A stretch of DNA of 64,000 bases, taken from NCBI GenBank assembly GCA_030648295.1, contig JAUSID010000217.1, positions 1 through 64,000 on the forward strand, in the 5' to 3' direction. The translations under genes were made by a program, and so were the position numbers. Every line of letters begins with the position of its first letter. The stretch's first letter is position 1. Of this stretch, positions 12,898-31,324 are shown piece after piece. This stretch comes from Opitutaceae bacterium (GTDB lineage: Bacteria > Verrucomicrobiota > Verrucomicrobiia > Opitutales > Opitutaceae). The notes under the pieces were generated by a model. It did not search any database. It had not been told where the DNA came from and saw nothing but the letters and a program-made list of their open reading frames with translations.

Positions 12898-14528
12898 AGT
12901 TCGAATTTTCGGGCTCGAAGATCTTTCCCGGCACGAGCCGCGAGATCACGGTGTATGTGCCCAAACAATACGACGGCACGAAACCATCGTGCGTCTACAT
13001 CAACCAGGACGGCGTGCAGTGGAGCGCCCCGGTGGTGTTCGACAACCTCATCGCTCGGCGGGAACTGCCGGTTCTGATCGGCGTGTTTGTCCGGCCGGGG
13101 GTCGTGAAGGCACTTGCCGGCGACACGTCGCTTGATCGTTTCAACCGCAGCTTCGAGTACGACGGACTGGGGGACAGCTATGCGCGGTTCCTGCTCGAGG
13201 AATTGTTGCCCGCCGTGGAAATGAAGACGACGACCGATGGTCGCCGAATCCGGCTCTCCTCGAAGGGCAATGACCGCGCCATCGGCGGCTCGAGTAGCGG
13301 GGCCATTTGCGCGTTTACGGCTGCATGGGAACGGCCGGATGCATTCAGCCGGGTGTGGAGCAACGTGGGGACGTTCGTCGGCCTGCGCGGTGGCGATCGT
13401 TATCCAACGCTAATCCGCAAGAGTGAGCCGCGGCGTATTCGCGTGTTTCTCGTGGACGGGTCGAACGACAACAACAGCTACGGCGGCGACTGGTGGATGG
13501 CGAACCAGACGATGGAGCGCGCGCTCGCGTTCGCCGGCTACGAAGTCGAGCACGTCTGGGGCGAGGGTGGGCACAACGCACGCCACGGCACGACCGTGTT
13601 TCCCGATGCGATCCGCTGGCTGTGGAAGGGCTGGCCCGAACGCGTGAAGCCGGCCGCGCCAACGCGCAATCCCGTGCTCGCGGCCGTACTGGTCCCCGGC
13701 GAGGAGTGGCAACTCGTCGGTGAGGGCTACCGGCTTTCTGAGGGCGCGGCGACCAATGCGCGGGGTGAGGTGTTCTTCACGGACATCCCGAACAGCAAGG
13801 TGTATAAGGTCGGCTTGGACGGCACTGTCACGCTCGTGCGCGAGAATACGAATCGCGCCAACGGACAGGCGTTTGGGCCCGATGGCCGGCTGTATGCCGC
13901 CGCCAGCGGCGCGCAGCAGATTGTGGCGTATGGTGCTGACGGAAATGCCGCAATGATTGCAGATGGGATTGCCGCCAACGACCTCGTCGTGGCGCACAAC
14001 GGGAACATCTACGTCACGCAGCCGCCGCCGGGAAACAGCAACGAGCCGAGCAAGGTGTGGTTAATCAAACCCGATGGGACGAAGAGCGTGGTCGACACCG
14101 GCATTCGTTTTGCCAACGGCGTCACACTGTCACCCGACCAGTCGCTGCTCTATGTGGCGGACTATCGCTCGCACTGGGTATACAGCTTCCAAATACGGCC
14201 CGACGGCACGCTGGCGCACAAACAACGGTTTTTCTGGCTGCACGAGCCGGACGAGGGCGATCAGAGCTTCGCTGACGGCATGAAGGTCGACCGCGAGGGC
14301 CGGCTTTATGTGGCCACGCGACTGGGTCTCCAGATTTGCGATCAAGCGGGCCGGGTGAACGCGATCATTCCGACCCCCAACGGCCGAATCACGAACCTGT
14401 GCTTCGGCGGCCCGAAGTTCGACACGATCTTCGAGACCTGCAATGACAAGGTGTATAAACGGACAGTGAACGCGATCGGCGCGCACGCATGGGCGGCGCC
14501 GAACAAGCCCACGGCTCCGCGGCTGTGA
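12891..14528 (+). CDS. Esterase domain fused to SMP-30/gluconolactonase-like beta-propeller, N-terminus missing
   Basis: Two-domain protein: an esterase-D-like alpha/beta hydrolase (about residues 1-250; nucleophile region [11 protein letters not shown], and the histidine in EGGHNARHG) followed by a six-bladed SMP-30/gluconolactonase/LRE domain (about 270-540). Proteins of this layout are normally exported, but this copy starts at a TTG at 12891 inside the end of the NtrC-type gene and has no signal peptide. The frame stays open upstream to 12825 and reads GELLKFEF across the start, which resembles the family, so the 5' end may have been lost when the two genes were joined. It may be non-functional or cytoplasmic. 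Confidence 0.75.
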
Positions 14529-15354
14529 TGGCGCTCAGGCGGGAGCGCACTGTCGGCCCCCGACGGGCGCGCATGAACTTTCGTACGCGCCTCGGATCGA
14601 CGTCCGCTGCCCAGTTGCCATCCAACTTGAAATCGGATCCGACAATAAACCCGTCGGCTTCCGCCCAAAACCCGGCCACATTGGCAGCCGTTGCCCCCGA
14701 GCCGATGATCACCGGCAGCCTCGTTGCACGCTTCACTTCACGAACGTCATCTGGCTTCGGCGCGTCGCCGGTCACCATCCCCGTCACAATCACGGCGTCG
14801 CCGCGCATGAACTCCACCGCGTGGGCGGTCTCCGCGATACTCACATCCGAGGTGATCGCGTGAGCGCTATGCTTCTTCTTCACATCTGCCCAAACGCGCA
14901 CGTCATCAGCCCCAATCGCCCGTCGATACCGCAATAATTCCGCTGCCGACGACTCAATGAGACCTTCGTCCGCCACATGCGCGAACGCGAAACCTTCCGC
15001 GCGGATGAACTCCAACCCGGCGGCAAGCGCGACCGCGATCGCCTCTTTGTTCGCACCCGCCAGAATTTGGACACCGCACGGAATGCCCGCCGCTTCCTTC
15101 ACCGCGCGCGCGACAATTGTCATCGCCGCAACAATCTCCGGCCCCACCGTGCCGCGCAGGTACGGAGTGTCATGCATGTTCTCGATCATGACGCCATCCA
15201 CTCCGGCCGCCCGGTAGATCCTGGCCTCGCGAACGGCGATGCTTTCAATCTCTTTCAGTTTACGCGCTGCCGCCGGTGTACCCGGAAGCGCGCCAAGGTG
15301 AACCATTCCGATGACTGGCTTCGTTGCGTTGAACCATTTCGCAAACGCGGTCAT
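14389..15354 (-). CDS. BtpA/SgcQ-family TIM-barrel protein with C-terminal extension
   Basis: BtpA family proteins are TIM-barrel proteins of poorly defined function, often found beside sugar metabolism genes and, in cyanobacteria, needed for photosystem I stability. Family segments seen here are IGMVHLGALPG, GVDGVMIENMHDTPY, ADVKKKHSAH and the phosphate-binding-like GSGATAANV. The recognisable domain ends near residue 266; the last about 55 residues are Arg/Ser-rich and run antisense through the end of the esterase gene, as if the original stop codon had been lost. The start overlaps the sirtuin gene by 4 bp, so the two are translationally coupled. Confidence 0.85.
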   Translation of the reverse strand: MTAFAKWFNATKPVIGMVHLGALPGTPAAARKLKEIESIAVREARIYRAAGVDGVMIENMHDTPYLRGTVGPEIVAAMTIVARAVKEAAGIPCGVQILAGANKEAIAVALAAGLEFIRAEGFAFAHVADEGLIESSAAELLRYRRAIGADDVRVWADVKKKHSAHAITSDVSIAETAHAVEFMRGDAVIVTGMVTGDAPKPDDVREVKRATRLPVIIGSGATAANVAGFWAEADGFIVGSDFKLDGNWAADVDPRRVRKFMRARRGPTVRSRLSAITAAEPWACSAPPMRARRSRSLSVYTPCHCRSRRSCRTSGRRSTGS

Positions 15355-16139
15355 CCGCCCACGCTATGCCGCGATGGCGACGAACCAAGTCCCGAGTGTG
15401 ACCATTCGGCCACCAATCCCGGCAGCGCCGCAGCTGCGGCACCACGAATCGCCCGCGTCGCGTGCGGCGAAAGCGGCGTTTCTTCGGGGTTGATTTCGAC
15501 CAGTTCGCCGCCCGCTCGTCTTCCGCGCACGGCCCACTCGACGATGTAACCGAACAATGCCGTCGTTCCGATCACGATGGTCACATCCGCCCGGCCGCCG
15601 TCCAAGAACGCCTCAACGCGCTGGACTTCATTTGGCGGCAGCGATTCCCCAAACCATACCACTCCGGGCCGCAATGCGATTTCGCACCGCGGGCACACCG
15701 GCACCGATGCGGCGTCGTCAGCGTGCAGCCGCTTGGTCGTCCGATAGTCACATCGCGAACAACGTGTGACGAAAATGTCGCCGTGAATCTGCACGCACAG
15801 TTCTGGCGCCAGCGCACGACCATTCCATTTCGCCCGCAGGTGGAGGTCATCCACGTTCTGCGTCACGAGCAGGAAATCCCCGGCGGTGGCGGCGAGTTCG
15901 ACGACGGCGATGTGCGCGGCATTTGGGCAGGCGCCGCGGATTTGCTCGCGGCGTTCGCGGTACCATTCCCAGACCAACGCAGGATCGCTGCGGAATGCTG
16001 CCTCGGTCGCGAGCTTCGCCGGATCCATCTTCCGCCAGTAGCCGCCCGGCCCGCGGAACGTCGCGATTCCGCTCTCGGCCGAGATTCCTGCGCCGGTGAT
16101 GACCAGCACACGAGCGTCACTGAGTTTCGGATCCGCCAT
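15351..16139 (-). CDS. NAD-dependent protein deacylase, sirtuin (CobB type)
   Basis: Removes acyl groups from lysines using NAD+. The NAD-binding GAGISAESGIATFRG, the TQNVDDLH segment and catalytic His in QIHGD are all present. Two Cys pairs (CSRC and CPRC) would bind zinc. The motif WYRERR contains the Tyr and Arg that mark class III sirtuins able to remove succinyl and malonyl groups. I start it at the ATG at 16139 (MADPKLSDA). It ends 4 bp into the BtpA-family gene on the same strand. Confidence 0.92.
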   Translation of the reverse strand: MADPKLSDARVLVITGAGISAESGIATFRGPGGYWRKMDPAKLATEAAFRSDPALVWEWYRERREQIRGACPNAAHIAVVELAATAGDFLLVTQNVDDLHLRAKWNGRALAPELCVQIHGDIFVTRCSRCDYRTTKRLHADDAASVPVCPRCEIALRPGVVWFGESLPPNEVQRVEAFLDGGRADVTIVIGTTALFGYIVEWAVRGRRAGGELVEINPEETPLSPHATRAIRGAAAAALPGLVAEWSHSGLGSSPSRHSVGG

Positions 16140-16305
16140 GATTTGAAACGGGGAAGTGGACCTGAAGTGCCGATGTATGAAAGCTTCGTCGGGCGGCGCG
16201 AGAATCCCCCGCCTCGCCACTTTGGCTGGTACGATGCCGGCGGATCAAGATTCGGCGATAAATCGGACCAGAACCCGTTCGGCGGCCGGCCTGCGCGAAG
16301 AACAA

Positions 16306-17301
16306 CTACTTCCGATCCGCGTATCCATTCGGATGGGTCGAATGCCATTTCCAAGCGGTCGCGACGGTCGACTCGATATCCGGGAACTTCACCTTCCAGC
16401 CGAGTTCCCCCTGCGCCTTCTTCGAATCGGCAAACAGCGCAGGCGGATCGCCGGCGCGCCGCGGGCCCTCGACCACCTTCACCTTCCTGCCAGTCACTTT
16501 TTCCACCGCCCGGATGACCTCGCGATTGGAGGTAGGCGTGCCGGTGCCGAGATTGAAGAAAAGCTGCGCTCCGGGGTTGCCCAACCGGTCGAACACGGCG
16601 ATGTGTGCGCGACTGAGATCGTCAACGTGGATGTAGTCGCGCAGGCACGTGCCGTCGGGCGTCGGATAATCCGAGCCGAAGAGCTGCAGGTGAGGGCGCT
16701 TGCCCACGGCCACGTCGATCGCCACGGGAATCAGGTGCGTCTCGGGATCGTGGTCTTCGCCAATCGTGCCGTCTTCAGAGGCGCCAGCAGCGTTGAAGTA
16801 GCGAAACGCGGCAAAACTGAGTCCATTCGCATGGGCCAGCGCCTTGAGCGCGTTCTCGATGTCGAGTTTTGTCTGCCCGTACGGATTGATCGGCGCCTGC
16901 GGCAGGTTCTCGTGAATCGGGAGCGTCTCTGGAATCCCGAACGTCGCGCACGTCGACGAAAACACAAACTTCTTCACGCCGGCATCGAGCATCGCCTTCA
17001 GCAGGTGCAGCGTCGCGACGACGTTGTTGAAGTAATATTTGAGCGGATCGGTGACCGATTCGCCGACGTAGCAATACGCCGCGAAATGCATGACGACCTC
17101 GATTCGCTCGTCGCGCAGGGTTCTTACCACGAACGCCTCGTCGCCGAGGTTTCCATCGTAAACTTTCACCCTGCTCGCGACGGCGCCGCGATGGCCGTAC
17201 ACGAAGTTGTCGAGTACGACAGGTCGATGCCCCGCGGCGACGAGTTGGCGGACACAGTGACTGCCAATGTAACCGGCACCTCCGACGACGAGAACGTTCA
17301 T
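16306..17301 (-). CDS. galE: UDP-glucose 4-epimerase
   Basis: Interconverts UDP-glucose and UDP-galactose, 331 aa. The NAD-binding GGAGYIGSH is at the N-terminus, the catalytic Ser/Thr lies in SSTCATFG, and the Tyr and Lys in NPYGQTK. The substrate-binding segment NVSNREV is written PTSNREV here. It would supply galactosyl units for envelope polysaccharide or feed galactose into glycolysis. It is transcribed away from the ketosynthase gene that begins at 17542. Confidence 0.95.
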   Translation of the reverse strand: MNVLVVGGAGYIGSHCVRQLVAAGHRPVVLDNFVYGHRGAVASRVKVYDGNLGDEAFVVRTLRDERIEVVMHFAAYCYVGESVTDPLKYYFNNVVATLHLLKAMLDAGVKKFVFSSTCATFGIPETLPIHENLPQAPINPYGQTKLDIENALKALAHANGLSFAAFRYFNAAGASEDGTIGEDHDPETHLIPVAIDVAVGKRPHLQLFGSDYPTPDGTCLRDYIHVDDLSRAHIAVFDRLGNPGAQLFFNLGTGTPTSNREVIRAVEKVTGRKVKVVEGPRRAGDPPALFADSKKAQGELGWKVKFPDIESTVATAWKWHSTHPNGYADRK

Positions 17302-17541
17302 GATGGTTCGGGAATCAGATGCATTTCACCGCGACGTCAAACCGCTCACGCCGCTCAACGCGATGCAATCCATTTGGTTTCGCAGCTCACTGGTTCCAGC
17401 ACGAAAGAATTCAACGCGCACGGGACGTCGATGCCACCTTCAAGCCGCAGGAGCAACGATCGGCATGCCGTTTCGGCGATGTTCCGGGAAGCTGGTGTTG
17501 CATTCAGCGTGCGGGGCGCTAGCGATTTTCGTTTCACCTGA

Positions 17542-18780
17542 ATGAAGCCAGCGCGAATCGTCATCACCGGGGTTGGATTGACCGCACCCAACGGCAACTC
17601 GCTCCCGGAATTCCGGCAAAACCTGCTGAACGGGATCGCGGGCATCGAGCGGATCGAGGTTCGCTACATGGGGCAGCAACTCGCCGGTGTCTGCCACTAC
17701 GACGCGCTGAAGTACCAGAAGAAAAAGGAAATTCGGGTCGGCACGCGCGCGGGCAGCATTTCGATCTACTGCGCCCGCGAGGCGCTCGCCGACAGCGGCG
17801 TCCAATTCGAAGGGATGGCGAAGGATCGGATCGGGATTTACATCGGTTGCACCGAGCACGGGAACGTCGAGACTGAAAACGAAATCTACGGCATCTCGAA
17901 ATTTGGCTACGACACGAAGTTTTGGTCGCATTACCACAATCCGCGGACCGTCGCCAACAACCCGGCCGGCGAGGCCTCGTTGAACCTCGGCATCACCGGC
18001 CCGGCGTACACGATCGGGGCGGCGTGCGCAGCGGGGAACCTTGGGCTGATTCACGCCACACAAATGCTCCGACTCGGCGAGGTTGACTTCGCGATTTGCG
18101 GTGGCGTGAGCGAGAGCATCCACACGTTCGGGATTTTCGCCGGCTTCAAGTCGCAGAACGCGCTGGCGACGCACGAGGACCCGAAGAAGGCATCGCGCCC
18201 GTTCGACAAGGCGCGCAACGGCATCGTGATTTCCGAGGGCGGCTGCCTCTACACGCTCGAGCGGCTGGTGGACGCGCAGGCGCGAGGCGCGAAAATCTAT
18301 GCCGAGATTGCCGGGTACCACGTCAACAGCGACGCGAGCGATTACGTGTTGCCCAACCCGCAGCGGCAGAGCGAATGCATCCGCGCCGCGATTGGCCGCG
18401 CCGGGCTTCAGCCGCGAGACATCCATATTGTCAATACCCACGCCACGGCCACGCCGCTCGGCGACATTCAGGAATGCGAGGCTATTCGGGCTGTGTTCGG
18501 CGAGGGCTGTCCGGAGACGTCCATCAACAACACGAAAAGCTACATCGGGCATGCGATGGGGGCCGCCGGCGCGCTCGAACTGGCAGGAAATCTGCCGTCG
18601 TTCGACGATTTGACTGTGCACCCCAGCATCAACGTCGACGATCTCGATCCGCAATGCGCTCTGCCCGGGCTGGTTCTCAATCAGCCGCGGAAGGTTGCGA
18701 AAGTAGATACCATCCTGAATAACTCATTTGGCATGCTTGGGATAAATTCCACGTTGATTGTTAAGCGGTTTCTCCCCTAA
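17542..18780 (+). CDS. Beta-ketoacyl-ACP synthase, FabF/KAS II type
   Basis: Condenses malonyl-ACP with an acyl chain. Thiolase-fold protein of 412 aa with the catalytic Cys162 (GAACAAGN), first histidine in NTHATAT and second in SYIGHAMGAAG. Its core differs from a housekeeping FabF in the unusual GCTEHGNVETENE stretch near residues 101-114, and it sits beside its own ACP gene 18 bp downstream plus a CrtI-type oxidoreductase. I infer a dedicated ketosynthase for a special lipid or polyene and not the housekeeping enzyme. A related function set lies at 34944-40714. Confidence 0.92.
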   Translation: MKPARIVITGVGLTAPNGNSLPEFRQNLLNGIAGIERIEVRYMGQQLAGVCHYDALKYQKKKEIRVGTRAGSISIYCAREALADSGVQFEGMAKDRIGIYIGCTEHGNVETENEIYGISKFGYDTKFWSHYHNPRTVANNPAGEASLNLGITGPAYTIGAACAAGNLGLIHATQMLRLGEVDFAICGGVSESIHTFGIFAGFKSQNALATHEDPKKASRPFDKARNGIVISEGGCLYTLERLVDAQARGAKIYAEIAGYHVNSDASDYVLPNPQRQSECIRAAIGRAGLQPRDIHIVNTHATATPLGDIQECEAIRAVFGEGCPETSINNTKSYIGHAMGAAGALELAGNLPSFDDLTVHPSINVDDLDPQCALPGLVLNQPRKVAKVDTILNNSFGMLGINSTLIVKRFLP

Positions 18781-18797
18781 TTCCGCGCGAAGTGCCT

Positions 18798-19061
18798 ATG
18801 ACCAAAGACGAATGCAAGAAGGTGGTGCTCGATATCATCGCGGACATCGCGCCCGATGAGGATTTGAGCAACGTCAAGCCTGACGTCCGCCTCCGTGACC
18901 AGCTGCAGCTGGATAGCATGGACTTCCTGGATATCGTCATGGAACTGCGCAAGCGGCACGGCATCGAGGTGCCCGAGGCGGATTACATGCAGCTGGCATC
19001 ACTCGACAGCTCGGCCGAATACTTGACTCCGAAGTTCAACGCGCTGGCGGCCAAGCGTTAG
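18798..19061 (+). CDS. Acyl carrier protein
   Basis: Small carrier of 87 aa that would hold growing acyl chains on a phosphopantetheine arm attached to Ser40, in LDSMDFLD. The surrounding helix pattern is the usual four-helix ACP. I start at the ATG at 18798; a GTG two codons earlier is possible. The modification motif is DSMD in place of the DSLD of most housekeeping ACPs, and the gene follows the ketosynthase closely, so it is probably that enzyme's partner. Confidence 0.9.
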   Translation: MTKDECKKVVLDIIADIAPDEDLSNVKPDVRLRDQLQLDSMDFLDIVMELRKRHGIEVPEADYMQLASLDSSAEYLTPKFNALAAKR

Positions 19062-19388
19062 CCCGCGTTGGTATGCTGGCGATGCGCAAAGCCGCGACCC
19101 GGTTTTGCCGGTAGCCCGCATTTTTCATACTTGAAATGGTCTTCACCCGTGCCTGACCACCAACATCCTAACGTTCCGGCGAGTGCCCCGCGTCCATGCG
19201 GGCTAAATGCAAAATGCGCCGGAGGCGCACAAGCCGCCGTGGTTTACCCGCCTTCCGCGGGTTTTGCCCTTAGCCGGGAAATCGTGGAGCGTGCGCCGGC
19301 GCACGGCACCAGCGAACACACTGTGCGCTCGCAGCGGAGCAAAGTGTGAAATTTCCCGGCTAGCCGAGGAATTCTGTTCCGGAGTCGC
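19062..19388. other. Intergenic repeat block
   Basis: No gene seen in these 327 bp. They contain the palindrome-ended element at 19271-19362 and, before it, GC-rich inverted stretches such as TGCGCCGGAGGCGCA near 19212. Translation across the gap is low-complexity. Confidence 0.7.
19271..19362 (+). repeat. 92-bp element with terminal inverted repeats, copy 1
   Basis: Begins TAGCCGGGAAAT and ends ATTTCCCGGCTA. A second copy, inverted, lies at 48128-48221 and shares the interior including GTGCGCCGGCGC and GAACACACTGTG with few changes. It has the form of a small non-autonomous element (MITE-like) or a large REP-type palindrome. Confidence 0.8.
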
Positions 19389-20858
19389 ATGAATACCCGG
19401 GCCCATTACGACGTCGCGATCATCGGCGCCGGCATGTCGGGACTCGCGGCGGGCATCCGACTGGCTCATTTCGGCAAGAAGGTCTGTATCTTCGAGCGTC
19501 ACAACGCGCCAGGCGGGCTCAACAGCTTCTATTCGATCGCCGGCCGCAAGTTCGACGTCGGGCTGCATGCGATGACGAATTTCGTCCGACCCGGCGTGAA
19601 AGGCACGCCGCTGACGAAACTGCTCCGGCAGCTGCGCATCGACCGCGACGAGTTCGCCCTCTGCGAGCAGAAGCAGTCGCGGATCGCGTTCGGACCGCGC
19701 GGCGAGATTTCGCTCCGGTTCACGAATGACTTCGGCGTGCTCGAGAGCGAAGTCGCGGCGCGCTTTCCGGCGCACATCGACGGGTTTCGCCAGCTCGTCG
19801 AGATTATCCGCGGCTACGATGACGTTTCGCTCGATGCGGCGCCTGAGTCGGCGCGCGCGATCGTGCGGCGACACATCTCTGATCCGCTGTTCGAGGACAT
19901 GCTGTTCTGTCCCCTGATGTATTACGGCAGCGCGACGGAGCGGGACATGGAGTTCGGTCAGTTCGTGATCATGTTCAAGGCGCTCTTCTTCGAGGGCTTC
20001 GCCCGGCCCTTCGAAGGCGTGCGCACCGTCATTCGCGTGCTGCTCGAGAAATATCGCGCGGCCGGCGGCGAGCGTCGGATGAAATGCGGCGTACGTGAAA
20101 TTGTGGTACGCAACGTCCGCGCGGCCGCGCTCGTGCTCGACAACGGCGACGAGATCACCGCCGACCACATCATTTCCTCCATCGGGATTGCGGAGACTGA
20201 ACAGCTGCTGCGCGCGGAAACGCCGCCATCCGCAGTCCGCTATCCGAAATCCGAAATTCCGCCGGGTCGGCTCTCTTTCGTCGAAACCATCACGGTGCTG
20301 AAGGATCAACCGGCCGCCTTCGGCTGGGGCTCCGACACCATCATTTTCTTCAACGATTCGGAACGCTTCGACTACGCGCGACCCGCGGCGCCGGTCGACC
20401 CACGGAGCGGAGTCATCTGCATTCCGAACAATTTTGATTTTGGTCCCGGTCGGCTGCTGTCTGAGGGTTTCGTGCGCGTCACGTGCCTGGCGAATTACGA
20501 CCCGTGGGCTAACTGGCCCGAGGAAACCTACCGCGAAGAAAAGCAACGGTGGTTCGCGAAGGTGCAGCGCAGCGCGCGGCGATTCCTGCCCCCGCTCGCA
20601 GATGAAACCGCGTTTGAGCGCACGATTATCGCCACCGACATGTTCACGCCGCGCACGATCACGAAGTTCACCGGCCATCTCGGCGGCGCGATTTACGGCG
20701 CGCCAACGAAAAACCGGCAGGGGAGGACCGCGCTTTCAAACTTGTATCTGTGCGGAACGGATCAGGGGTTTCTGGGAATCGTCGGCGCGATGCTCAGCGG
20801 AATCTCGATGGCGAATTATCACATCCTGGTGGCGCGCCCGAGCGCTCCGCCAAAGTAA
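19389..20858 (+). CDS. CrtI-type FAD-dependent oxidoreductase (phytoene desaturase-like), lipid cluster copy 1
   Basis: FAD enzyme of the phytoene desaturase/amine oxidase fold, 489 aa. The dinucleotide-binding motif IIGAGMSGLAAGIRLA is near residue 11 and the second ERHNAPGGLNS segment near residue 38; the C-terminal FAD contact is NLYLCGTDQGFLGIVGAMLSG. It follows the ketosynthase and ACP genes on the same strand, so I infer that it desaturates, isomerises or saturates an acyl-ACP or polyene and is not a carotenoid enzyme; no carotenoid genes are near. Around residues 280-290 the sequence PSAVRYPKSEIP looks like an in-frame piece of an intergenic repeat. A second enzyme of this type is at 34944-36389. 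Confidence 0.82.
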   Translation: MNTRAHYDVAIIGAGMSGLAAGIRLAHFGKKVCIFERHNAPGGLNSFYSIAGRKFDVGLHAMTNFVRPGVKGTPLTKLLRQLRIDRDEFALCEQKQSRIAFGPRGEISLRFTNDFGVLESEVAARFPAHIDGFRQLVEIIRGYDDVSLDAAPESARAIVRRHISDPLFEDMLFCPLMYYGSATERDMEFGQFVIMFKALFFEGFARPFEGVRTVIRVLLEKYRAAGGERRMKCGVREIVVRNVRAAALVLDNGDEITADHIISSIGIAETEQLLRAETPPSAVRYPKSEIPPGRLSFVETITVLKDQPAAFGWGSDTIIFFNDSERFDYARPAAPVDPRSGVICIPNNFDFGPGRLLSEGFVRVTCLANYDPWANWPEETYREEKQRWFAKVQRSARRFLPPLADETAFERTIIATDMFTPRTITKFTGHLGGAIYGAPTKNRQGRTALSNLYLCGTDQGFLGIVGAMLSGISMANYHILVARPSAPPK

Positions 20859-21148
20859 ATCCATCTCGAGCTGGAAAGCTGCAGTCGAAACATCGCGTTT
20901 CGTAGCAGCCGAGGTGACGAGGCTGGATCATGTCGGTTCACGGTCCTGTGGATGGGCGCCGCGGCTCCATTGAATGAGTGGTAGAAATTCGTCTGCATCG
21001 TTCCTGATCAAGAGGGGGCGGGATGCGTTCGTGCATCAACCCCATGGCCTTGCCTCGCGCTTTGGCCCGACATTCACCACAGCGTCACAACGCTCCACCC
21101 ATGCTTGCAACCGGCCGATCGCCCGCAAGGCTGCCCGGGCTCTCTTCC
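20859..21148. other. Intergenic region with AGCAGCCGAGG repeat
   Basis: About 290 bp without a supported gene. The repeat CGTAGCAGCCGAGGTGACGA (20901-20926) is one of three copies in the window. An open frame continues into it from the isomerase-like gene but carries no recognisable protein. Confidence 0.6.
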
Positions 21149-22006
21149 ATGAAACCTCTCCTCAATATTTTCCTTTTGCTGGCGGTCGCCGGCTCCGCGT
21201 TCGCGGCGTCCGCCGTGAACTTCAAGGACCATCTCGGTCTCCAGCTCTACAGCCTTCGCGACAAGATGAAGGAGAGCCCGATTGCGGCGCTCGATCTCGC
21301 GAAGTCGTATGGCGTGAAGGAGGTCGAGCTCGCCGGCACCGGCAACCTGACGCCGGAGCAGTTTGCGTCCGAACTGAAGAAACGCGGACTCGTGCCGATC
21401 AGCGGCCATTTCGGCTACAACGTGTTCGACAAGGATGTCGCCGCCGTCATTCGCGATGCGAAGACCCTCGGGCTCAAGTATGTCAACGTTCCGTACCCGC
21501 CAGTCGGCAAGGACAAGATTTTCTCCGAGGAGCTGGCGCACCAGACCGCCGCGAAGTTCAACGAGTGGGGCGCCGCCTGCAAAGCGGCCGGCCTCACCTT
21601 TGGCTACCACCCGCACGGGCTCGAGTTCCGACCAACGGCGAGCGGCGGGACCGTATTCGATATCCTGGTGCGCGAAACGAAGCCGGAATTGGTTTCGTTC
21701 CAGATGGACGTGTACTGGGTCTACTACGCCGGACAGGATCCGGTGAAACTGCTCGAGAAGTATCCGAACCGCTGGTCCACGCTTCACATCAAGGACATGT
21801 TGAAGGGTCTCGCCACCGGCCTGCACACCGGCGGCACGCCGCCGACGGCGAAGGTCACGGTCGGCATGGGCCAGATCGACTACGCATCCGTGCTGCGCGC
21901 GGCACAGAAGATCGGCGTGAAGCATTACTTCCTGGAGGACGAGACCCCGACGCCGCTGCAGTGCATTCCGGATAGTTTCAAGTACCTCCGCGCGCTGAAG
22001 CTCTAA
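21149..22006 (+). CDS. Exported sugar phosphate isomerase/epimerase-like protein (xylose isomerase-like TIM barrel)
   Basis: TIM-barrel protein of 285 aa of the AP endonuclease 2/xylose isomerase-like family, preceded by a signal peptide (hydrophobic residues 4-18, AFA end). The start at 21149 is chosen because it places the signal peptide at the N-terminus. Characteristic segments are LGLQLYSLRD, GYHPHGLEF, QMDVYWVYYAG and TLHIKDM, with the His, Glu and Asp that would bind a metal. These periplasmic forms are common beside sugar catabolic genes in Verrucomicrobia and Planctomycetes; the real substrate is unknown. The fucosidase gene follows after a repeat-rich gap. Confidence 0.82.
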   Translation: MKPLLNIFLLLAVAGSAFAASAVNFKDHLGLQLYSLRDKMKESPIAALDLAKSYGVKEVELAGTGNLTPEQFASELKKRGLVPISGHFGYNVFDKDVAAVIRDAKTLGLKYVNVPYPPVGKDKIFSEELAHQTAAKFNEWGAACKAAGLTFGYHPHGLEFRPTASGGTVFDILVRETKPELVSFQMDVYWVYYAGQDPVKLLEKYPNRWSTLHIKDMLKGLATGLHTGGTPPTAKVTVGMGQIDYASVLRAAQKIGVKHYFLEDETPTPLQCIPDSFKYLRALKL

Positions 22007-22341
22007 CGCGATTTAACAGAGCGTTGCCTCGGAGCGCGTGCCTCACAGCTTCCCAAGCCGGTGCGGGTTGAAATTCCGTCGCAAGTGGAGCCGCGGTGCC
22101 CCGCCACGGCTGACGACAAAACGTTGTGATGATATCCACGGCGACGGCGCCGCGGCTCCATTACCGGCTAGTGAACTGAGTAATCCCAGCCTCGTTACCT
22201 CGGCTGCTACGAAATCCATGCGGGCGGGACGCCCGCGCTCCCGGGGGAAACGCGTCTCGCGGTTGGCCGGTCTGAAATCCGCGGTCGCCACACGGGCTGC
22301 GCGGGTACAGCTTCGATTCCGCTTCTGTCGCGTTTAATCCG
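22007..22341. other. Intergenic repeat block upstream of the fucosidase
   Basis: No gene seen. It holds one copy of the AGCAGCCGAGG family (22186-22211, inverted), directly followed by a GGCGGGACGCCCGCGCTCCC module (22217-22243) of the kind repeated at 42490-42723, and a GCCGCGGCTCCA motif also found near 20960. Confidence 0.7.
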
Positions 22342-24033
22342 ATGAAAACTCTGTGCCAGCTCCTCAGTGCTCTCATTTTGCCCGGCTGCTTTAGTGCGGC
22401 CGGTGCTGCACCCGCGCCGTCTGCCCCTTCGCCGACCGTTTCTCCCGCCGAGCGCGCGGAAAGCGAGGCGCGGATTGCCTGGTGGCGGGCGAATCGCTTT
22501 GGGCTGTTCGTCCACTGGGGCCCAGTATCGCTGAAGGGCACCGAGATTGGCTGGTCGCGCGCCGGGGAACGCCGGGGCTACCGCGGTCCGGGCACGCTGG
22601 TGCCGACGGAGGTGTACGACAACCTCTACCAGGAATTCAATCCGGTACGCTTCGATGCGCGCGAGTGGGTCGCACTGGCTCAGGCGGCCGGCATGAAGTA
22701 CATCGTCTTCACCAGCCGGCACCACGACGGGTTCAGCATGTTCGACACGGCGGCGAGCGACTACAAGATCACGAGTCCGCTCAGTCCGTTTCGGCGCGAT
22801 GTGGTCAGGGAACTCGCCGACGCCGCTCATGCCGCGGGCCTCAAGTTCGGGCTCTACTACTCGCAGCCCAACTGGCATCACCCCGACGCGTTCACGGCGG
22901 ATCGCCATGGACGTTATCTGGCGTATTTGAAAACCCAGGTACGCGAGCTGCTCACGAACTATGGACGCGTCGACATCCTTTGGTTCGATGGGCTGGGCAA
23001 GAAGGCCGAGGACTACGACGGCGTGGCGCTCAACCGGATGGCGCGTGATCTCCAGCCGCACCTGCTGATCAACAATCGCGACGGGCTGCCGGAGGACTTC
23101 GACACGCCCGAGCAGCGCGTCGGCAAATATCAGGACGATCGTCCGTGGGAAAGTTGCATCACGATCTGCAAGCAGTGGGCGTGGAAGCCGGAAGACACGA
23201 TGAAGTCGCTCGCCGAATGCGTGCAGACGCTCGTGCGCTGTGCCGGCGGCGACGGCAATCTGCTCTTCAACGTCGGCCCGATGCCCGATGGGCGAATCGA
23301 GCCGCGGCAGGTGGAGAGGCTGCGCGAAATGGGCGCGTGGCTGGCGCGAAATGGCGAAAGCATTTACGCGACCCGCGGCGGGCCGTGGCATCCGACCAAG
23401 ACGATCGCGAGCACGCGCAAGGGGAACACCGTTTACGTTCACGCGTTCGACTGGAAAAACGCGAAGCTCGAACTGCCCGCGCTGCCACGAGCGGTGAAAT
23501 CGGCCGCGCTGCTCGGCGGTGGCCGCGCCAGCGTGCGCCAGGAAAACGACAAGCTGATCGTCGAGGTCGATCCGGCGTCTCGCGATGAGATCGACACGGT
23601 GGTGAAACTCGAACTCTCCGGTTCCGCGATGGACATTCCGGCGATTCCGCTGACACCGACGATCAAAGCCACCGCGTCGAATGTGTTTCGCGCCAACATG
23701 GCGGACCATGGCCCGCAGGAGGCGTTCGATGGCAATCCGTCCACGCGTTGGGCCACCGACGCGGGAACGAAACACGCGTGGATCGCCCGTGACCTCGAGA
23801 AACCGACGGCCATCGGGCAGGTGCGGATCAACGAGGCGATCGCGGAGCGAGTGCGGAAATTCCAATTGCAATATCGCGAGGGCGATGCGTGGACGACGAT
23901 CTTCGCCGGCGAAAGGATTGGCCGATCCTTCACGAAAACGTTTCCTCCCGTGACCGCCCGCGAGTTCCGGCTGAATATCCTCGAGGCCACCGAGGGCCCC
24001 ACGATCGCGGAGATCGAGCTGAGCGAAAAGTGA
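22342..24033 (+). CDS. Alpha-L-fucosidase, GH29, with C-terminal discoidin-like domain
   Basis: Secreted glycosidase (563 aa) that releases L-fucose. After a signal peptide of about 22 residues, the GH29 barrel shows FGLFVHWGP, the HHDGFSMFD segment and the nucleophile aspartate in ILWFDG (about residue 218). The later part (about 440-560) looks like an F5/8 type C carbohydrate-binding domain (WATDAGTKHAW, FQLQYREGDAW). With the sulfatases at the left edge and the galE gene it points to use of sulfated, fucose-containing polysaccharide, though these genes do not form one operon. Confidence 0.92.
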   Translation: MKTLCQLLSALILPGCFSAAGAAPAPSAPSPTVSPAERAESEARIAWWRANRFGLFVHWGPVSLKGTEIGWSRAGERRGYRGPGTLVPTEVYDNLYQEFNPVRFDAREWVALAQAAGMKYIVFTSRHHDGFSMFDTAASDYKITSPLSPFRRDVVRELADAAHAAGLKFGLYYSQPNWHHPDAFTADRHGRYLAYLKTQVRELLTNYGRVDILWFDGLGKKAEDYDGVALNRMARDLQPHLLINNRDGLPEDFDTPEQRVGKYQDDRPWESCITICKQWAWKPEDTMKSLAECVQTLVRCAGGDGNLLFNVGPMPDGRIEPRQVERLREMGAWLARNGESIYATRGGPWHPTKTIASTRKGNTVYVHAFDWKNAKLELPALPRAVKSAALLGGGRASVRQENDKLIVEVDPASRDEIDTVVKLELSGSAMDIPAIPLTPTIKATASNVFRANMADHGPQEAFDGNPSTRWATDAGTKHAWIARDLEKPTAIGQVRINEAIAERVRKFQLQYREGDAWTTIFAGERIGRSFTKTFPPVTAREFRLNILEATEGPTIAEIELSEK

Positions 24034-24104
24034 TTGGCCTGAATTCCGTCGACTCGACTTTGAATTCGCGCGACAACACGCGCCGCCAACCATTTTACGG
24101 CTCG

Positions 24105-24794
24105 ATGAAGCTCAGCTGCAAAACGTGCGGGCTCCTCATTCCCCCGGCGAACGTGAATCTCGCCGAAGGGATCTGTTTCTGTCCGGGCTGCAACGAATCG
24201 TTCCGGCTGACCACGGCGAACGTCTCGGATGAAATGACTTCGGGCGTGGGCCGGCCGGCCGGCACCGGGATCGAGTTTGTCGCAGATGTCGAGACGCTCG
24301 GACTCATCATTCCGCCCGGCAACAACCGGCGGTTGAGAAATCTTTGGGTGGGGTGGGCGGCGGCGATCAATGTCCTCGCGGCCATCCTGGTCGTGTCGGC
24401 ATTATGGCCGCGCAGCAGTGTATCCGTTGGTGGAGCATGCTTCGTCGTCGTCCTCGGTGCACTCGTGGCGGCACTGGCGCTTTTCCTGGCGCGCGGCGAG
24501 TTCACGCTGGCAATCAACCGCCGCGAATGCACCGCCATCTGGGCATTGTTTCATTGGAGCCACCTGAAGCGGGTTCCCACGCCGCAGATCACCGACGTGG
24601 TCTTGCACGAAATCTACACCGTCAATGAACAGCCGCGTTACGCGATTCTGATCAAGCATCCCATGGGATCGATTCTGTTCGGCGCGACGCTGACCAACGA
24701 GGAGCGGCGCTGGCTGACGGATGAGATCCGGCGATTTCTGGGCAAGGACGATCCCAGCCGGATCCAAGCCGTCGAACACGAGTCCACTTCATAG
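24105..24794 (+). CDS. Zinc-ribbon membrane protein of unknown function
   Basis: 229 aa, not recognised. The N-terminus has CKTCGLLIPP and CFCPGCNESF, four cysteines in the spacing of a zinc ribbon. Two hydrophobic helices follow at about 93-112 and 117-138, then a soluble C-terminal domain of about 90 residues rich in charged groups. I start it at the ATG at 24105; the open frame before it is antisense to nothing known but overlaps the fucosidase end. It lies 71 bp after the fucosidase and may be cotranscribed. Confidence 0.65.
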   Translation: MKLSCKTCGLLIPPANVNLAEGICFCPGCNESFRLTTANVSDEMTSGVGRPAGTGIEFVADVETLGLIIPPGNNRRLRNLWVGWAAAINVLAAILVVSALWPRSSVSVGGACFVVVLGALVAALALFLARGEFTLAINRRECTAIWALFHWSHLKRVPTPQITDVVLHEIYTVNEQPRYAILIKHPMGSILFGATLTNEERRWLTDEIRRFLGKDDPSRIQAVEHESTS

Positions 24795-24841
24795 CAGCCG
24801 AAGCCACACCGAATTATCCAGCCTCGTTACCTCGGCTGCTA
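24792..24841. repeat. Palindrome of the AGCAGCCGAGG family, complete copy
   Basis: TAGCAGCCGAAG at the left faces CCTCGGCTGCTA at the right, making a 50-bp hairpin. Half copies lie at 20901-20926 and 22186-22211. Confidence 0.75.
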
Positions 24842-24911
24842 CGGCAGCGAGCGATCGATTTATTCAGTTGCGGCTTCGCCCAGAATAATTCGTCCGTCGC
24901 AGCACCATCCC

Positions 24912-25430
24912 ATGTCACTCGAACGATTCAGGACCGCACAGGATTCCCGTCACGGCGGGTTCGAAACCGCACTGGCTGAATTGAAGGCCGGGCGGAAACG
25001 AAGCCATTGGATCTGGTATGTGTTTCCGCAGCTCGCGGGACTCGGCAACTCGAGTCCGGCACGAACGTATGCGCTGCGCGATTTGAATGAAGCGGTCGAA
25101 TATCGGTGCGATCCAGTACTTGGTCCGCGACTGGCGGCGATCACGGACGTCGTCGCTCGCCAGCTCGCATCTGGCGTGGGGCTCGAACACCTGATGGGCT
25201 CGCACATCGACGCGCTAAAGCTCGTGTCGAGTCTCACCTTGTTCGAACTGGCGCTCCAGGGAACTGGCGCCGCTCCGCCGCCATATTCTGACGCGCTCGC
25301 GAAGAGCTGCGCGAGTGTCCTCGCCGCCGCCGAACGCGAAGGTTTCCCAAGGTGCCGGTTTTCACTCGAGCAAGCCCGACCGGCGGGAGAGACCAAGGAG
25401 GATGGAGGGACGAAGGGACTAAAGGACTAA
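24912..25430 (+). CDS. DUF1810 family protein with repeat-derived tail
   Basis: Small soluble protein of the DUF1810 family, whose function is unknown. Family hallmarks are LERFRTAQD at the start, the SHWIWYVFPQ segment near residues 32-41 and GLGNSSPAR, followed by MGSHIDALKLVSSLTLF. The conserved part ends near residue 153; the last residues (KEDGGTKGLKD) come from the short GGACTAAAGGACGAAGGG repeats that fill the following intergenic DNA, so the natural stop has probably been displaced. Confidence 0.88.
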   Translation: MSLERFRTAQDSRHGGFETALAELKAGRKRSHWIWYVFPQLAGLGNSSPARTYALRDLNEAVEYRCDPVLGPRLAAITDVVARQLASGVGLEHLMGSHIDALKLVSSLTLFELALQGTGAAPPPYSDALAKSCASVLAAAEREGFPRCRFSLEQARPAGETKEDGGTKGLKD

Positions 25431-25514
25431 AGGACGAAGGGACAAAACCAGAAGCCAGAGGCCAGATGCCAGGACAGCGAGGCGCAGCCTCAGATCCGAC
25501 ACAATTCCCGGTTT

Positions 25515-25598
25515 GTCATTCTGAGGCTTGGCGAAGAATCCAGCACGATGCTCGCAGCCGGACGCGCCACTGGATTCTTCGGCGGCCCTCAGAATGAC
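25515..25598. repeat. Palindromic repeat, CATTCTGAG family, copy 2
   Basis: GTCATTCTGAGG at the left and CCTCAGAATGAC at the right enclose inverted GCGAAGAATCCAG and CTGGATTCTTCGGC. Same ends as the element at 21-104. Confidence 0.8.
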
Positions 25599-25829
25599 AG
25601 TTTAGGAATTTTCGGAAACCCTGGTCGCCTTCGGCGCCGCCGGAGGCGGGCAAGCTTGACCTGTTCACAACGAGTTTGGGAGTTCAAGGAGTCTAGAGAC
25701 CAAAGACTGGAGACTAAAAACCGGCGGAAACCGATTGTAGACCGCGTAAGGACTTTCCGGATGCAGCGGCTGAAGTGGCTGCGGCTTCCAGCCGCAGTTT
25801 GAGTCGGAAGACCGTTGGCCCGCATCGTT

Positions 25830-25900
25830 CGCGGCTTCGCGTGAGGCCCTGGCTTGGTTGGGCCCAATCCGGGCTCACGCGAAGACGCGAAGTCGCGAAG
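25830..25900. repeat. Palindromic repeat, GCGGCTTCGCGTGAG family, copy 1
   Basis: CGCGGCTTCGCGTGAG faces CTCACGCGAAGACGCGAAG, with TTGGGCCCAA near the centre. Related copies are at 26629-26703 and, inverted, at 34577-34660. Confidence 0.8.
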
Positions 25901-26431
25901 TCATTCCGTTGGGCCACGGCGATCTGGCAGCGCGCGGGGCATTTGATCGAATGCCAGGTCGGGTGAAGACGCGTCACTGCGACGCCAAAGCATCGACATG
26001 GGTACCCTACTGAGCCGCTCCGTCACTTCGGCTGGCGCCAGTCCTCCTTCCACCAGATCCACCGTTGCGAGGAACACGAGTTCATTGATCGAACCCATGA
26101 TACGACGATCGGGGATCCGCGCGAAACGCACGGCGGCGGCGGCGGGCGCGATGAAAGTCTCGTACGCGAATGCCCGTCCCGACCGGTCCATATAGTCGCG
26201 AAGACCGGCGAGCGACGCGCGAATAAACGTGTCATCCGACGTGATACCACTCCCGTGCAGCACCACCGACAGGAGCGAGTAACTGTTCGTGAGAATGATG
26301 TAGCGGAATCGGTTCACGGTGAAGGTGTGAGCCGACCAGTCGGCATGCGGTGCCGTTACGGCCACGGTGTCGGCCGGCACGGTGAGGTGCAGTCGCTTCG
26401 CGAGCATGAGGGTAGGGCGAAAGGTGAGCAC
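25901..26431 (-). CDS. DUF6933-type protein of unknown function
   Basis: 176 aa, resembling the family now called DUF6933. Typical features are the N-terminal FRPTLMLAKRLHL, the DWSAHTFTVNRFRYIILTNS stretch, the SVVLHGSGI segment, a GLRDYM helix and the C-terminal SMLWRRSDA region where family members have MSYL. The function is not known; related genes are often mobile and surrounded by repeats, as here. Its last codons run into the first palindrome of the GCGGCTTCGCGTGAG type. Confidence 0.75.
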   Translation of the reverse strand: MLTFRPTLMLAKRLHLTVPADTVAVTAPHADWSAHTFTVNRFRYIILTNSYSLLSVVLHGSGITSDDTFIRASLAGLRDYMDRSGRAFAYETFIAPAAAAVRFARIPDRRIMGSINELVFLATVDLVEGGLAPAEVTERLSRVPMSMLWRRSDASSPDLAFDQMPRALPDRRGPTE

Positions 26432-26530
26432 GGCCGGATGCTCATCGTCCCGGTCGCAACCCGCAATCGATTCTTCGTCGTAGGGGACGGCGTGCCTTCG
26501 AGCGGACGTGTTTCAAGCAAAACCCCTGAA

Positions 26531-26602
26531 TTTTACAGGAGGAAACGGAGGCAACGGAGGAGGAAACAATTTCTCCGTTTCCTCCATTTCCTCCCGTGAA
26601 AA
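26531..26602. repeat. GGAGGAAACGGAGG hairpin, copy 1
   Basis: TTTTACAGGAGGAAACGG at the left is matched by an inverted CCGTTTCCTCCATTTCCTCC on the right, ending CCGTGAAAAG. A larger copy with a long loop is at 27064-27222. Confidence 0.75.
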
Positions 26603-26628
26603 GATTGGGTGTGGTATTCCCAGTGTCC

Positions 26629-26703
26629 TTCGCGTCTTCGCGTGAGACCCTGCCTTGATTGGGCCCAATCCTGGCTCGCGCGAAGCCGCGAAGACGCGAA
26701 GAG
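26629..26703. repeat. Palindromic repeat, GCGGCTTCGCGTGAG family, copy 2
   Basis: CTTCGCGTCTTCGCGTGAG faces a GCGCGAAGCCGCGAAGACG arm, again with TTGGGCCCAA in the centre as in copy 1. Confidence 0.8.
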
Positions 26704-26748
26704 ATTACGATCCGGCTACGAGGCAGTCGGCTGGACGCATCTGGTCCC

Positions 26749-26976
26749 TCAACGCTCCGCGAGATCGAGCCGGGGCCACAGTCGCCACCAAGGGAGCGGG
26801 ATGCGGTTTTGCCAGCGGTTGTAGTCGCGCAGATTCATGACGCGGCGGAGTGCGAGCCAGAACGGCAGCCCGTCGATGACATTGACCACGGCGAGAGCAG
26901 TCGCGAACAGCGCCAGCGTGATCACGCCGCCCAAGAACCAGCGGTAAACCCAATGGAAGAGCGACGGGCGACTCAT
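26749..26976 (-). CDS. Small membrane protein of unknown function
   Basis: About 75 aa from an ATG at 26976 (MSRPSLFHW). A single hydrophobic helix (about residues 12-37) is followed by a basic, tryptophan-rich tail containing NRWQNRIPLPWWRLW. Not recognised. It is isolated between repeat clusters, so I rely only on its protein-like composition; it may be a short conserved gene or a remnant. Confidence 0.45.
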   Translation of the reverse strand: MSRPSLFHWVYRWFLGGVITLALFATALAVVNVIDGLPFWLALRRVMNLRDYNRWQNRIPLPWWRLWPRLDLAER

Positions 26977-27298
26977 GCGGACAGAGGATATCAATCCGGA
27001 ATGGTGCAGCCCCGACCGCAAGACGCGTTTTGCCCCGGACGGGATCCGAGCCCCCAATCTTGAACAGGAGGCAACGGAGGAAACGGAGACCAGGCCAGAC
27101 GCAGACTGCCTTTATCCGGGATTGATCCGCGAAATCCGTGGTCAATTTGAACCCCAGAAATCGTGTAAAGCTACCGGCCGGTTCCGACCTCCGTTGCCTC
27201 CGTTTCCTCCTGTAAAAAGGTCTGGCTTGAAATTTTCGCCGCACTTCAAGTCGGCTTCGATCTCACCGACGAACGATCGAATCTTGCACTGTAGACGG
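26977..27298. other. Intergenic region downstream of hsdS
   Basis: No gene seen in about 320 bp. Most of it is the large hairpin repeat at 27064-27222. Confidence 0.65.
27064..27222. repeat. GGAGG/CCTCC hairpin, copy 2, with long loop
   Basis: ACAGGAGGCAACGGAGGAAA at the left is matched by an inverted TTTCCTCCTGT arm at the right, about 95 bp apart. The loop contains a module TTTATCCGGGATTGATCCGC and AAATCCGTGGTCAATTTGAA typical of dispersed repeats. Confidence 0.75.
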
Positions 27299-28996
27299 CT
27301 ATGCCGCGTGGAGCCGGGCGATGGTGGCGGCGAGCAGGGATTCGGCGGTCGTGCGCGCGGTGGTGAGCGAGGCTTCGAGCGCGTCGAGCACGGCCATGAG
27401 TTCGTCCACCTTGGCGACGATCCGGCGTTGTTCGGCGAGGGGTGGGAGCATGAAAGGGGTCTTTTTGATTTTCGCCTGATTCAACGACGATTGGTTCACA
27501 GCTCGCTGTGCTCTAAGAATAAAATACCGGGCGAATCTTAGGGCGGTGAGTTGATAGTGTGCGAAAGTTGGGTCTACGGACTCAGGGAAAAAACTAAGTC
27601 GAAGCAGATTCATCCCGTGAATCAGATTAGCCGGCGGCTTCTGGACGATGGCGGTCTTGCCGAGGTGAATTTCGCTATTGATGTGACTCAGCAGAATATC
27701 TCCGTCTTTCAACCTGAACCGTTCGAGTTGGTCATCGGTGAGGTCGTCGACAAAACCAACACGCGACATGTCTACAGTTCCATTCCAGATGGTTTCAATG
27801 CGGGTAACGGCAAACCGCTGAAGAACCTTTGAGGGGGTAACCGTAATTCCATTGGTTATCGTTCTGAGTAACTGCCCAAGCGGGCAAGCGACCCAAGAGG
27901 ACGGAAGCTCCCCAATGGGCCATTCGGTATCGATCTCTTGGGCCTTATCTGGCTGACGGAGCGCCGGCCTACTTTCATTTGCGACTTGAGGAACGATACG
28001 TCCTCCGATCGCGAGTTGGAGGATGGACTGCCGAATGTCGACGAGGTCTTTTGGTTCGGCGATGAGGCTGGGCAGATGCTGGCGGATGAAAGCGGCGGAC
28101 TTGGAATTCGAATCGGGCGAAGTGAGCTGGTGCAGCGCCGAGGTGCGCAGTCGGGTTCGCACCGCCTCCCGCTCCCGCTGCGCCGCTTCCAACGCGTCGC
28201 ACAGACCCATCAACGCCTCCACCTTCGCGACAATTCGCCGCTGCTCGGCGAGGGATGGGAGAGGCACCGGAGTGGAGATGATCTTAATTTTCGAAATGTT
28301 AGGCTGGGCTCCGCCTTCGCCTCGCCCGATGAAGTAGTCGCGGTAGCTACGAAGCAGATGGAAGAGATACCGATTGTAGACGCCATCGAAACAGGTGCAT
28401 CCGCACACAGCTTGGTTCGTCGTAGCCTCTTTCGCGAGGATCGCCAGTTTGCCGATGGTTGCGCCATACATCGCAATCAAAACGTCGCCCGGCTGATTGA
28501 GGCGCAATGAACACTTTTGAAGAGCAAAATCGGTGATTTTTTCTTCGGAATCATCGAGTGCCAGAAGATCGTTAAGCTCTCCGGATTTTAGCCAGAGAGT
28601 GGTTCCTCCGAAGAAGCGCGAGTCGCTTCGCGCTGGTGTTGAACCAGAGCCCCAATCGCCCAGATCACCAAGACGGCACCAGATCCAAGTGTTCGGTATC
28701 GAGAACAGCTGCTCGTCTTCAGTCACTTCCTCTTGGAATTTCTCGCGACTGATTTTGCCCGCTTTCATCAACCGGGTTCGCGCCGTGCGAAGCTCCATTA
28801 GCAGCGTTGATGCTGCCCCATCCGCAGGGTCTTGCGGCAAGAGTTTCCCCTGCACCGCCAATTGCATGAGCAGCGCGCGGAGTTTCGCGATGCCGCCGGG
28901 GGCTTCGGCGAGGCGGTCGAAATGGGTGAGCAGAAAATCTGCGGCGGCGGACGAATCGGACGGAGCGGACGCGGCGGGCGGGGATGTGGCCGACAT
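27299..28996 (-). CDS. hsdS: Type I restriction-modification specificity subunit
   Basis: DNA-recognition subunit (565 aa) that decides which bipartite site the type I enzyme reads. It contains two target-recognition domains (about 60-265 and 340-545), each followed by a conserved coiled-coil segment: LAEQRRIVAKVEALM and LAEQRRIVAKVDELM. The N-terminus begins with a low-complexity Ala/Ser stretch. It is the last gene of the hsdR-4HB-hsdM-hsdS unit; the stop of hsdM and this start are 19 bp apart. Confidence 0.92.
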   Translation of the reverse strand: MSATSPPAASAPSDSSAAADFLLTHFDRLAEAPGGIAKLRALLMQLAVQGKLLPQDPADGAASTLLMELRTARTRLMKAGKISREKFQEEVTEDEQLFSIPNTWIWCRLGDLGDWGSGSTPARSDSRFFGGTTLWLKSGELNDLLALDDSEEKITDFALQKCSLRLNQPGDVLIAMYGATIGKLAILAKEATTNQAVCGCTCFDGVYNRYLFHLLRSYRDYFIGRGEGGAQPNISKIKIISTPVPLPSLAEQRRIVAKVEALMGLCDALEAAQREREAVRTRLRTSALHQLTSPDSNSKSAAFIRQHLPSLIAEPKDLVDIRQSILQLAIGGRIVPQVANESRPALRQPDKAQEIDTEWPIGELPSSWVACPLGQLLRTITNGITVTPSKVLQRFAVTRIETIWNGTVDMSRVGFVDDLTDDQLERFRLKDGDILLSHINSEIHLGKTAIVQKPPANLIHGMNLLRLSFFPESVDPTFAHYQLTALRFARYFILRAQRAVNQSSLNQAKIKKTPFMLPPLAEQRRIVAKVDELMAVLDALEASLTTARTTAESLLAATIARLHAA

Positions 28997-29015
28997 GGCG
29001 GAGGACTGGGTGAGC

Positions 29016-31322: not shown

Positions 31323-31324
31323 GC

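Follow-up and report, generated by a model that had tools for sequence, protein, structure and literature searches.

A putative type II acyl line beside OleA and OleB in Opitutaceae, probably serving the synthesis of long-chain olefins

How bacteria might make polyunsaturated hydrocarbons without a polyunsaturated fatty acid (PUFA) polyketide synthase is a question raised by the C31:9 of Desulfotalea psychrophila, which, according to the available text of Rattray 2009 (PMC2649909), makes C31:8 and C31:9 hydrocarbons in the absence of such a synthase. No answer to it was found in the literature consulted. The window considered here (positions 1 to 64000, the whole 64,000 nucleotides analysed, of contig C7 from the Opitutaceae genome G000) carries a ketosynthase (KS), an acyl carrier protein (ACP) and two CrtI-like flavoenzymes together with OleA and OleB, and the question is therefore testable, the gene set being compact, physically tied to OleA and OleB and found in a bacterial order with cultured members. 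It seems likely that the locus is a discrete-enzyme (type II) acyl line dedicated to the OleABCD hydrocarbon pathway, where it would stand in for the Pfa PUFA synthase. In better-known bacteria a single giant enzyme complex builds and desaturates the chain; here the work is probably shared among separate small enzymes. This reading draws on the gene content, the conserved gene order, the catalytic residues of the KS, ACP, OleA and OleB, the co-occurrence of the genes, the lack of a PfaD match, and the OleC and OleD-like genes found elsewhere in the genome. The gene calls, tested with Pfam and NCBIfam profile scans (30 open reading frames (ORFs) of the window were given to Pfam), are as follows.

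17542–18780, plus strand: KS, a FabF-like ketosynthase, probably dedicated, with Pfam ketoacyl-synt N and C domains and Cys162-His300-His337
18792–19061, plus strand: ACP, probably dedicated, PP-binding in Pfam; start GTG 18792 or ATG 18798
19389–20858, plus strand: CrtI1, an FAD oxidoreductase (amine-oxidase) of the CrtI/CRTISO superfamily, below all carotenoid cut-offs
21023–22006: TIM-barrel gene, between CrtI1 and the insert of about 13 kb
22007–34943: about 13 kb between the halves, with a GH29 fucosidase, a DUF1810 protein and type I restriction-modification genes (27299–33679)
34944–36389, plus strand: CrtI2, a second FAD oxidoreductase of the CrtI/CRTISO superfamily, 24% identical to CrtI1
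36465–37052, plus strand: FabZ-like hydroxyacyl-ACP dehydratase, likely start ATG 36576
37519–38496, plus strand: FabI-like enoyl-ACP reductase
38618–39643, plus strand: OleA, head-to-head condensing thiolase; conserved start 38618, open frame from 38264
39812–40714, plus strand: OleB-like alpha/beta hydrolase; likely start 39812, open frame from 39716

An earlier note, made from the letters of the window, had described a ketosynthase with catalytic Cys162, an ACP with Ser40 and a CrtI-type oxidoreductase as consecutive at 17542–20858, and a second block of CrtI-type, FabZ-like, FabI-like, OleA and OleB genes at 34944–40714; the Pfam and NCBIfam scans bear out both blocks. Cys162, His300 and His337 of the KS are each invariant in the 164 relative loci aligned, a set that includes some genomes twice, and the pantetheine serine of the ACP, which is residue 40 counted from the ATG and 42 from the GTG two codons earlier, is invariant in all 153 loci aligned. 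A KS orthologue (best E 1e-79 or better) is present in 142 of 150 sampled genomes of the same family, the remaining eight being incomplete or fragmented assemblies, and OleA was matched in 141 of the 150. With KS orthologues across the family and a conserved gene order, the gene content that the note described is beyond chance.

The note had also taken the two blocks, some 14 kb apart, for halves of one split locus and had proposed a comparison of gene order, which upholds the inference: the blocks adjoin in many relatives and lie apart in others. The comparison drew on 40 stretches from the window's family and on 80 named loci, the latter being the best of at least 580 confirmed relatives; the two sets have some genomes in common and many stretches in both are cut by contig ends. 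All eight genes, in the order KS-ACP-CrtI1-CrtI2-FabZ-FabI-OleA-OleB, are found in one stretch in 19 of the 40 and in 31 of the 80. The gap between CrtI1 and CrtI2 is 300 bp or less in 37 of the 58 distinct loci that have both in one stretch (59 less L209, whose CrtI2 match was read as a cross-match on CrtI1), and the two blocks therefore belong together. In the window CrtI1 and CrtI2 are separated by 14,085 bp. Near relatives with short gaps, L184 and L069 among them, lack about 13 kb of this, namely the part with the fucosidase, DUF1810 and restriction-modification genes; the TIM-barrel gene also separates CrtI1 from CrtI2 in 11 of the 58. In several order-level relatives KS-ACP-CrtI1 and CrtI2-FabZ-FabI-OleA-OleB form separate loci (L157/L158; L161/L162).

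Neither the KS nor the ACP is the only one of its kind in the genome; for an ordinary module the note would have required, in part, that they were. There are eight ketosynthase-domain matches, one of them weak, and contig C252 holds a FabF with 622.7 bits against the NCBIfam cut-off of 493.75 and an adjoining ACP that exceeds several cut-offs. The window KS falls outside housekeeping FabF, with 314.6 bits against the same cut-off (TIGR03150) and no GFGG motif, and the window ACP scores under every NCBIfam cut-off listed. At the site where the housekeeping FabF reads NNLGFGGQN the KS reads NSFGMLGIN, with methionine in place of the phenylalanine of the GFGG motif in all 161 loci covering the site. 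The text of PMC2649909 available to us lists that FabF phenylalanine as a guide of acyl-chain entry; if, as our own reading of the two motifs has it, the KS methionine occupies the same position, an unusual acyl substrate is suggested. Two more divergent ketosynthases are present outside the fatty-acid synthase (FAS) locus, on contigs C100 and C221 (L107, L108), that on C221 scoring 310.5 bits on fabF with a cut-off of 493.75.

The Ole enzymes are divided between two loci in this genome. OleA scores 433 bits on NF006720 against a cut-off of 285 and aligns over its full length with Xanthomonas campestris OleA (3row, 2e-63), including a glutamate at the Glu117 position; the alignment places it in the family by the full set of Glu117, Cys143, His285 and Asn315. 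These Glu, Cys, His and Asn residues are invariant in 67 of 67 relatives aligned. Glu117 itself is named in the title of a reference cited by PMC7064751. The best PDB matches of the OleB-like protein are the alpha/beta hydrolases 8ooh and 8ckp, and its putative catalytic Asp is found in 62 of 62 aligned sequences and the His in 61, with one gap. OleB, the beta-lactone decarboxylase, is a haloalkane-dehalogenase-III-like hydrolase with an Asp nucleophile and a His. OleC and OleD were not found within the window; OleC lies on contig C17, where it belongs to its family by PRK09274 (634.7 bits, cut-off 478), though it reaches only 507.8 of 900 and 432.2 of 850 on the Xanthomonas- and Shewanella-specific models. 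Adjoining it is a reductase with a best match to oxyalk_red_OleD (376.8 bits), put forward only as a protein that may work like OleD. The OleA aligned over its full length, the OleB-type hydrolase, OleC and the OleD-like protein are thus common to this genome and the OleABCD pathway of X. campestris; the differences are the separation of oleAB from oleCD and, judging from the available text of PMC6463001, the source of precursors, which in X. campestris is core type II fatty acid synthesis (FASII), unlike the dedicated line proposed here.

Support from further afield comes from 288 Verrucomicrobiota genomes, searched at a separate threshold for each query (KS 1e-90, OleA 1e-50, CrtI2 1e-60, OleC 1e-120, PfaD 1e-30). 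KS was matched in 78, OleA in 76, CrtI2 in 76, OleC in 69 and PfaD in three; KS occurs with OleA in 74 and with CrtI2 in 75, while 59 have KS, OleA, CrtI2 and OleC together and 82 have any of the four. Fisher values for these co-occurrences ignore kinship. The 78 genomes with KS comprise the window's own, 24 others from its family, 18 from its order and 35 from other classes. No genome with KS comes from a different order of the same class, and same-class genomes head the list of those without a match. Exceptions include KS without CrtI2 (G300, G351, G391), CrtI2 without KS (G364) and OleC without KS (G192, G263, G301, G364). Genomes of other classes often have the genes at separate places (e.g. 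G226, G253, G294), an exception being G325 (L138), where CrtI1-ACP-KS and OleA are divergent, head-to-head neighbours.

No PfaD match was found in G000 at 1e-30, which places it outside the Pfa PUFA synthase route. PfaD was matched in none of the 74 genomes with OleA and KS and in both of the genomes with OleA and no KS (G192 and G263, of one family, f27); in G259, the remaining genome with PfaD, OleA was not matched. Within Verrucomicrobiota, OleA is accompanied by either Pfa or the KS-CrtI block. In G192, PfaD, PfaA (1695 bits, cut-off 1010), a polyketide synthase (PKS) with KS, AT and FabA-like domains, and OleA follow one another on one strand, with only 4 bp between the PKS and OleA; the gene after OleA is a prephenate dehydratase. 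The Pfa and OleABCD route to hentriacontanonaene is known from Shewanella, Photobacterium and Geobacter bemidjiensis; in this phylum PUFA-synthase genes lie directly 5′ of OleA in G192. Both that route and the arrangement proposed here pair OleA with an acyl synthase of its own; in the latter the synthase would consist of discrete type II enzymes and two CrtI-superfamily flavoenzymes. Verrucomicrobia are reported to have been a source of olefins in work by Sukovich in 2010, with C31:9 said to be the commonest product overall. A pfa-like type I synthase was suggested as the precursor source in Deltaproteobacteria and Planctomycetes in the accessible part of PMC3098273, and in that of PMC5673642 oleABCD is given as found only in the Opitutae genomes of that study.

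It would seem, then, that KS elongates chains on its own ACP, with reduction by a FabG that is probably a housekeeping copy in Opitutaceae, dehydration by FabZ and saturation of some enoyl steps by FabI. CrtI1 and CrtI2 would introduce, shift or isomerise double bonds on the ACP-bound chain, giving a (poly)unsaturated acyl chain. Two such chains would be condensed head to head by OleA, the keto acid reduced by OleD, the beta-lactone formed by OleC and CO2 removed by OleB, to yield a long-chain internal olefin, for which a C31 polyene is plausible. The earlier note had proposed a pathway to a polyunsaturated or otherwise modified long-chain lipid; the product class fits, and it can be sharpened to a long-chain olefin because of the OleA catalytic residues, the OleC in the genome and the phylum-wide co-occurrence. 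The end product is probably polyunsaturated, although this, the reactions of the CrtI-like proteins, the chain length and the feeding of OleA by the line are what we infer. The locus is best classed with the hydrocarbon pathways that couple a synthase to Ole, as their type II variant. More tentatively, and with rather less confidence than in the assignment of the locus itself, it may exemplify a third way for bacteria to make polyunsaturated chains, with neither a Pfa synthase nor an oxygen-dependent desaturase: two CrtI-superfamily flavoenzymes of a type II line would put double bonds into ACP-bound chains or move them. Such a route would be common to Opitutales, other Verrucomicrobiota classes and Nitrospina, and would be the source of polyunsaturated hydrocarbons in Pfa-less bacteria.

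Three Nitrospina or Nitrospinaceae records are among the best 80 of the at least 580 relatives, with a KS identity of 70–72%. Their order, KS-ACP-CrtI1-CrtI2-FabG-FabZ-FabI (two records by ORF, the third by homology), is that of the window plus FabG, which would here supply the reduction from within the run. This FabG falls short of the 3oxo_ACP_reduc cut-off (286.9 against 297.75 bits) and passes that of a FabG subfamily model (254.3 against 222), and the FabZ scores 130.7 against 113. In both the KS and CrtI2 trees the Nitrospina sequences group as a single clade, which is placed between Opitutales and the rows of other classes with only moderate support (84/92 and 83/71, respectively), so that a transfer of the block involving Nitrospina is likely. 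The available text of PMC10176705 reports oleC in Nitrospinaceae and in a Nitrospina metagenome-assembled genome. The locus bears on a possible hydrocarbon output of these marine nitrite oxidisers. In L251 and L252 the gene immediately 5′ of the Nitrospina block is ispF-like, and uppS-, cdsA- and dxr-like genes belong to the same run (named by eye from the translations).

Several observations weigh against a dedicated line feeding the Ole pathway. No ole gene was found in the Nitrospina stretches examined, which cover the surroundings of the block, and no FabG match that could be a dedicated ketoreductase was found in the window (1e-15). The OleD-like protein falls short of the cut-off of 580 bits and so fails as a family member. 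CrtI1 is trailed by at least 6.8 kb without CrtI2 in 19 of the 38 distinct loci lacking CrtI2 in the stretch, where the blocks must therefore be apart, and in the same-genus genome G006 they are on two long contigs. In the phylum survey the thresholds were set by ourselves; KS stands without OleA at threshold in four genomes (G247, G316, G343, G409), and OleC was not found at 1e-120 in 13 of the 78 genomes with KS, including the single-contig G004. The contrast between Pfa and the KS-CrtI block is one evolutionary event, since it rests on two genomes of one family. In G004 (L047) the eight genes from KS to OleB are all present, and this bacterium might make ketones or use another ligase.

The strongest alternative, which we nevertheless regard as unlikely, is that KS, ACP, CrtI, FabZ and FabI make unsaturated fatty acids for membrane phospholipids, as an alternative to FabA/FabB, and that OleA and OleB are merely neighbours. 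The full catalytic triad of the KS and a run that amounts to a near-complete FAS would suit this, as would the Nitrospina block, with its FabG and no ole gene in those stretches. However, KS keeps to OleA tightly even where the genes are unlinked, and bacteria of the same class outside the order, which provide none of the 78 genomes with KS, need membrane lipids too. In addition, the fatty acids named for strain ASA1 (taken as G013, which has locus L049) in the accessible part of PMC12193912 include no polyunsaturated one. The ASA1 genome has six antiSMASH regions according to the available text of PMC10927696, and the stretch from CrtI1 to OleB apparently lies between regions 2 and 3, if the coordinates agree, in which case the locus was not flagged.

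A different polyketide-like product, such as a ladderane-type or aryl-polyene-type compound or another pigment, for which OleA would join or release the chain with no olefin as end product, is more doubtful still. The KS, ACP, CrtI-like and FabZ genes do resemble the candidate ladderane clusters in the available text of PMC2649909 and PMC4790861, and OleC was not found in some genomes, but OleA retains OleB as its neighbour, the genome has an OleC, and no radical SAM match, as expected of a ladderane-type cluster, was found among the 30 window ORFs given to Pfam. By description rather than by sequence, the Kuenenia and D. psychrophila clusters, for which Rattray 2009 (PMC2649909, available text) proposed an extension of FASII, have extra FabF, ACP, FabZ and phytoene-dehydrogenase-like enzymes, as here; they differ in carrying radical SAM enzymes, and no ole genes are described for them in the available part of that paper. 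Our literature search found no report linking such a type II line to Ole. The locus also bears on the role of CrtI-like enzymes in the anammox lipid clusters.

CrtI1 and CrtI2 have in common with the CrtI/CRTISO carotenoid desaturases and isomerases the fold and the FAD-binding region; the closest structure to both predicted folds (pLDDT 88.2 and 87.4) is the carotenoid desaturase 4rep at 17–19% identity, a match that, for modelled folds, indicates kinship at the level of the superfamily. Unlike those enzymes they score far below the family cut-offs, with 70.6 and 116.2 bits against 586.9 on carotenoid isomerase, the best carotenoid model, and 58.3 and 79.9 against 238.1 on crtI_fam. No phytoene/squalene synthase (SQS_PSY) match was found in the 96.6% complete genome, the control search being positive in 7 of 14 known genomes. 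The two proteins thus fail as carotenoid CrtI, CrtISO or CrtD both on the NCBIfam cut-offs and on the backbone synthase, and the rest of what the note would have required of an ordinary module, that both fall among carotenoid desaturases with other carotenoid genes present, is lacking as well. That they are squalene-route carotenoid enzymes in a coincidental neighbourhood is very improbable given these scores, the lack of a synthase match and the 75 phylum genomes in which CrtI2 accompanies KS. For the homologues in anammox bacteria and Desulfotalea, PMC2649909 (available text) puts forward desaturation of an already unsaturated chain, and the two Kuenenia proteins gave no lycopene when substituted for CrtI (PMC4790861, available text); desaturation or, alternatively, double-bond isomerisation may be the reaction of CrtI1 and CrtI2.

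The locus is flanked by two further genes.

16306–17301, strand opposite to KS: galE, upstream of KS
40636–42258: GH77 amylomaltase, after OleB

Among the 40 family stretches galE is upstream of KS on the opposite strand in 36 (7 kb off in one), and the amylomaltase follows OleB in seven. As the type I restriction system does in the window, HsdR- and HsdM-like genes (34–35% identical) trail CrtI1 in L208 (about 14109–20450), so that the gap between CrtI1 and CrtI2 may be an insertion hot spot. G000 itself, at 9.1 Mb in 294 contigs and with 4.0% contamination, is larger than the six sampled genomes of its genus (3.8–6.6 Mb) and may contain some sequence from other organisms. A possible dedicated ketoreductase is the short-chain dehydrogenase directly 5′ of CrtI2 in G271, an order-level relative (L162:3137–3901). 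Finally, the eight-gene locus is retained in two ascidian-associated bacteria, Ca. Synoicihabitans palmerolidicus and Ca. Didemnitutus mandela (L226, L249), and therefore seems hard to lose.

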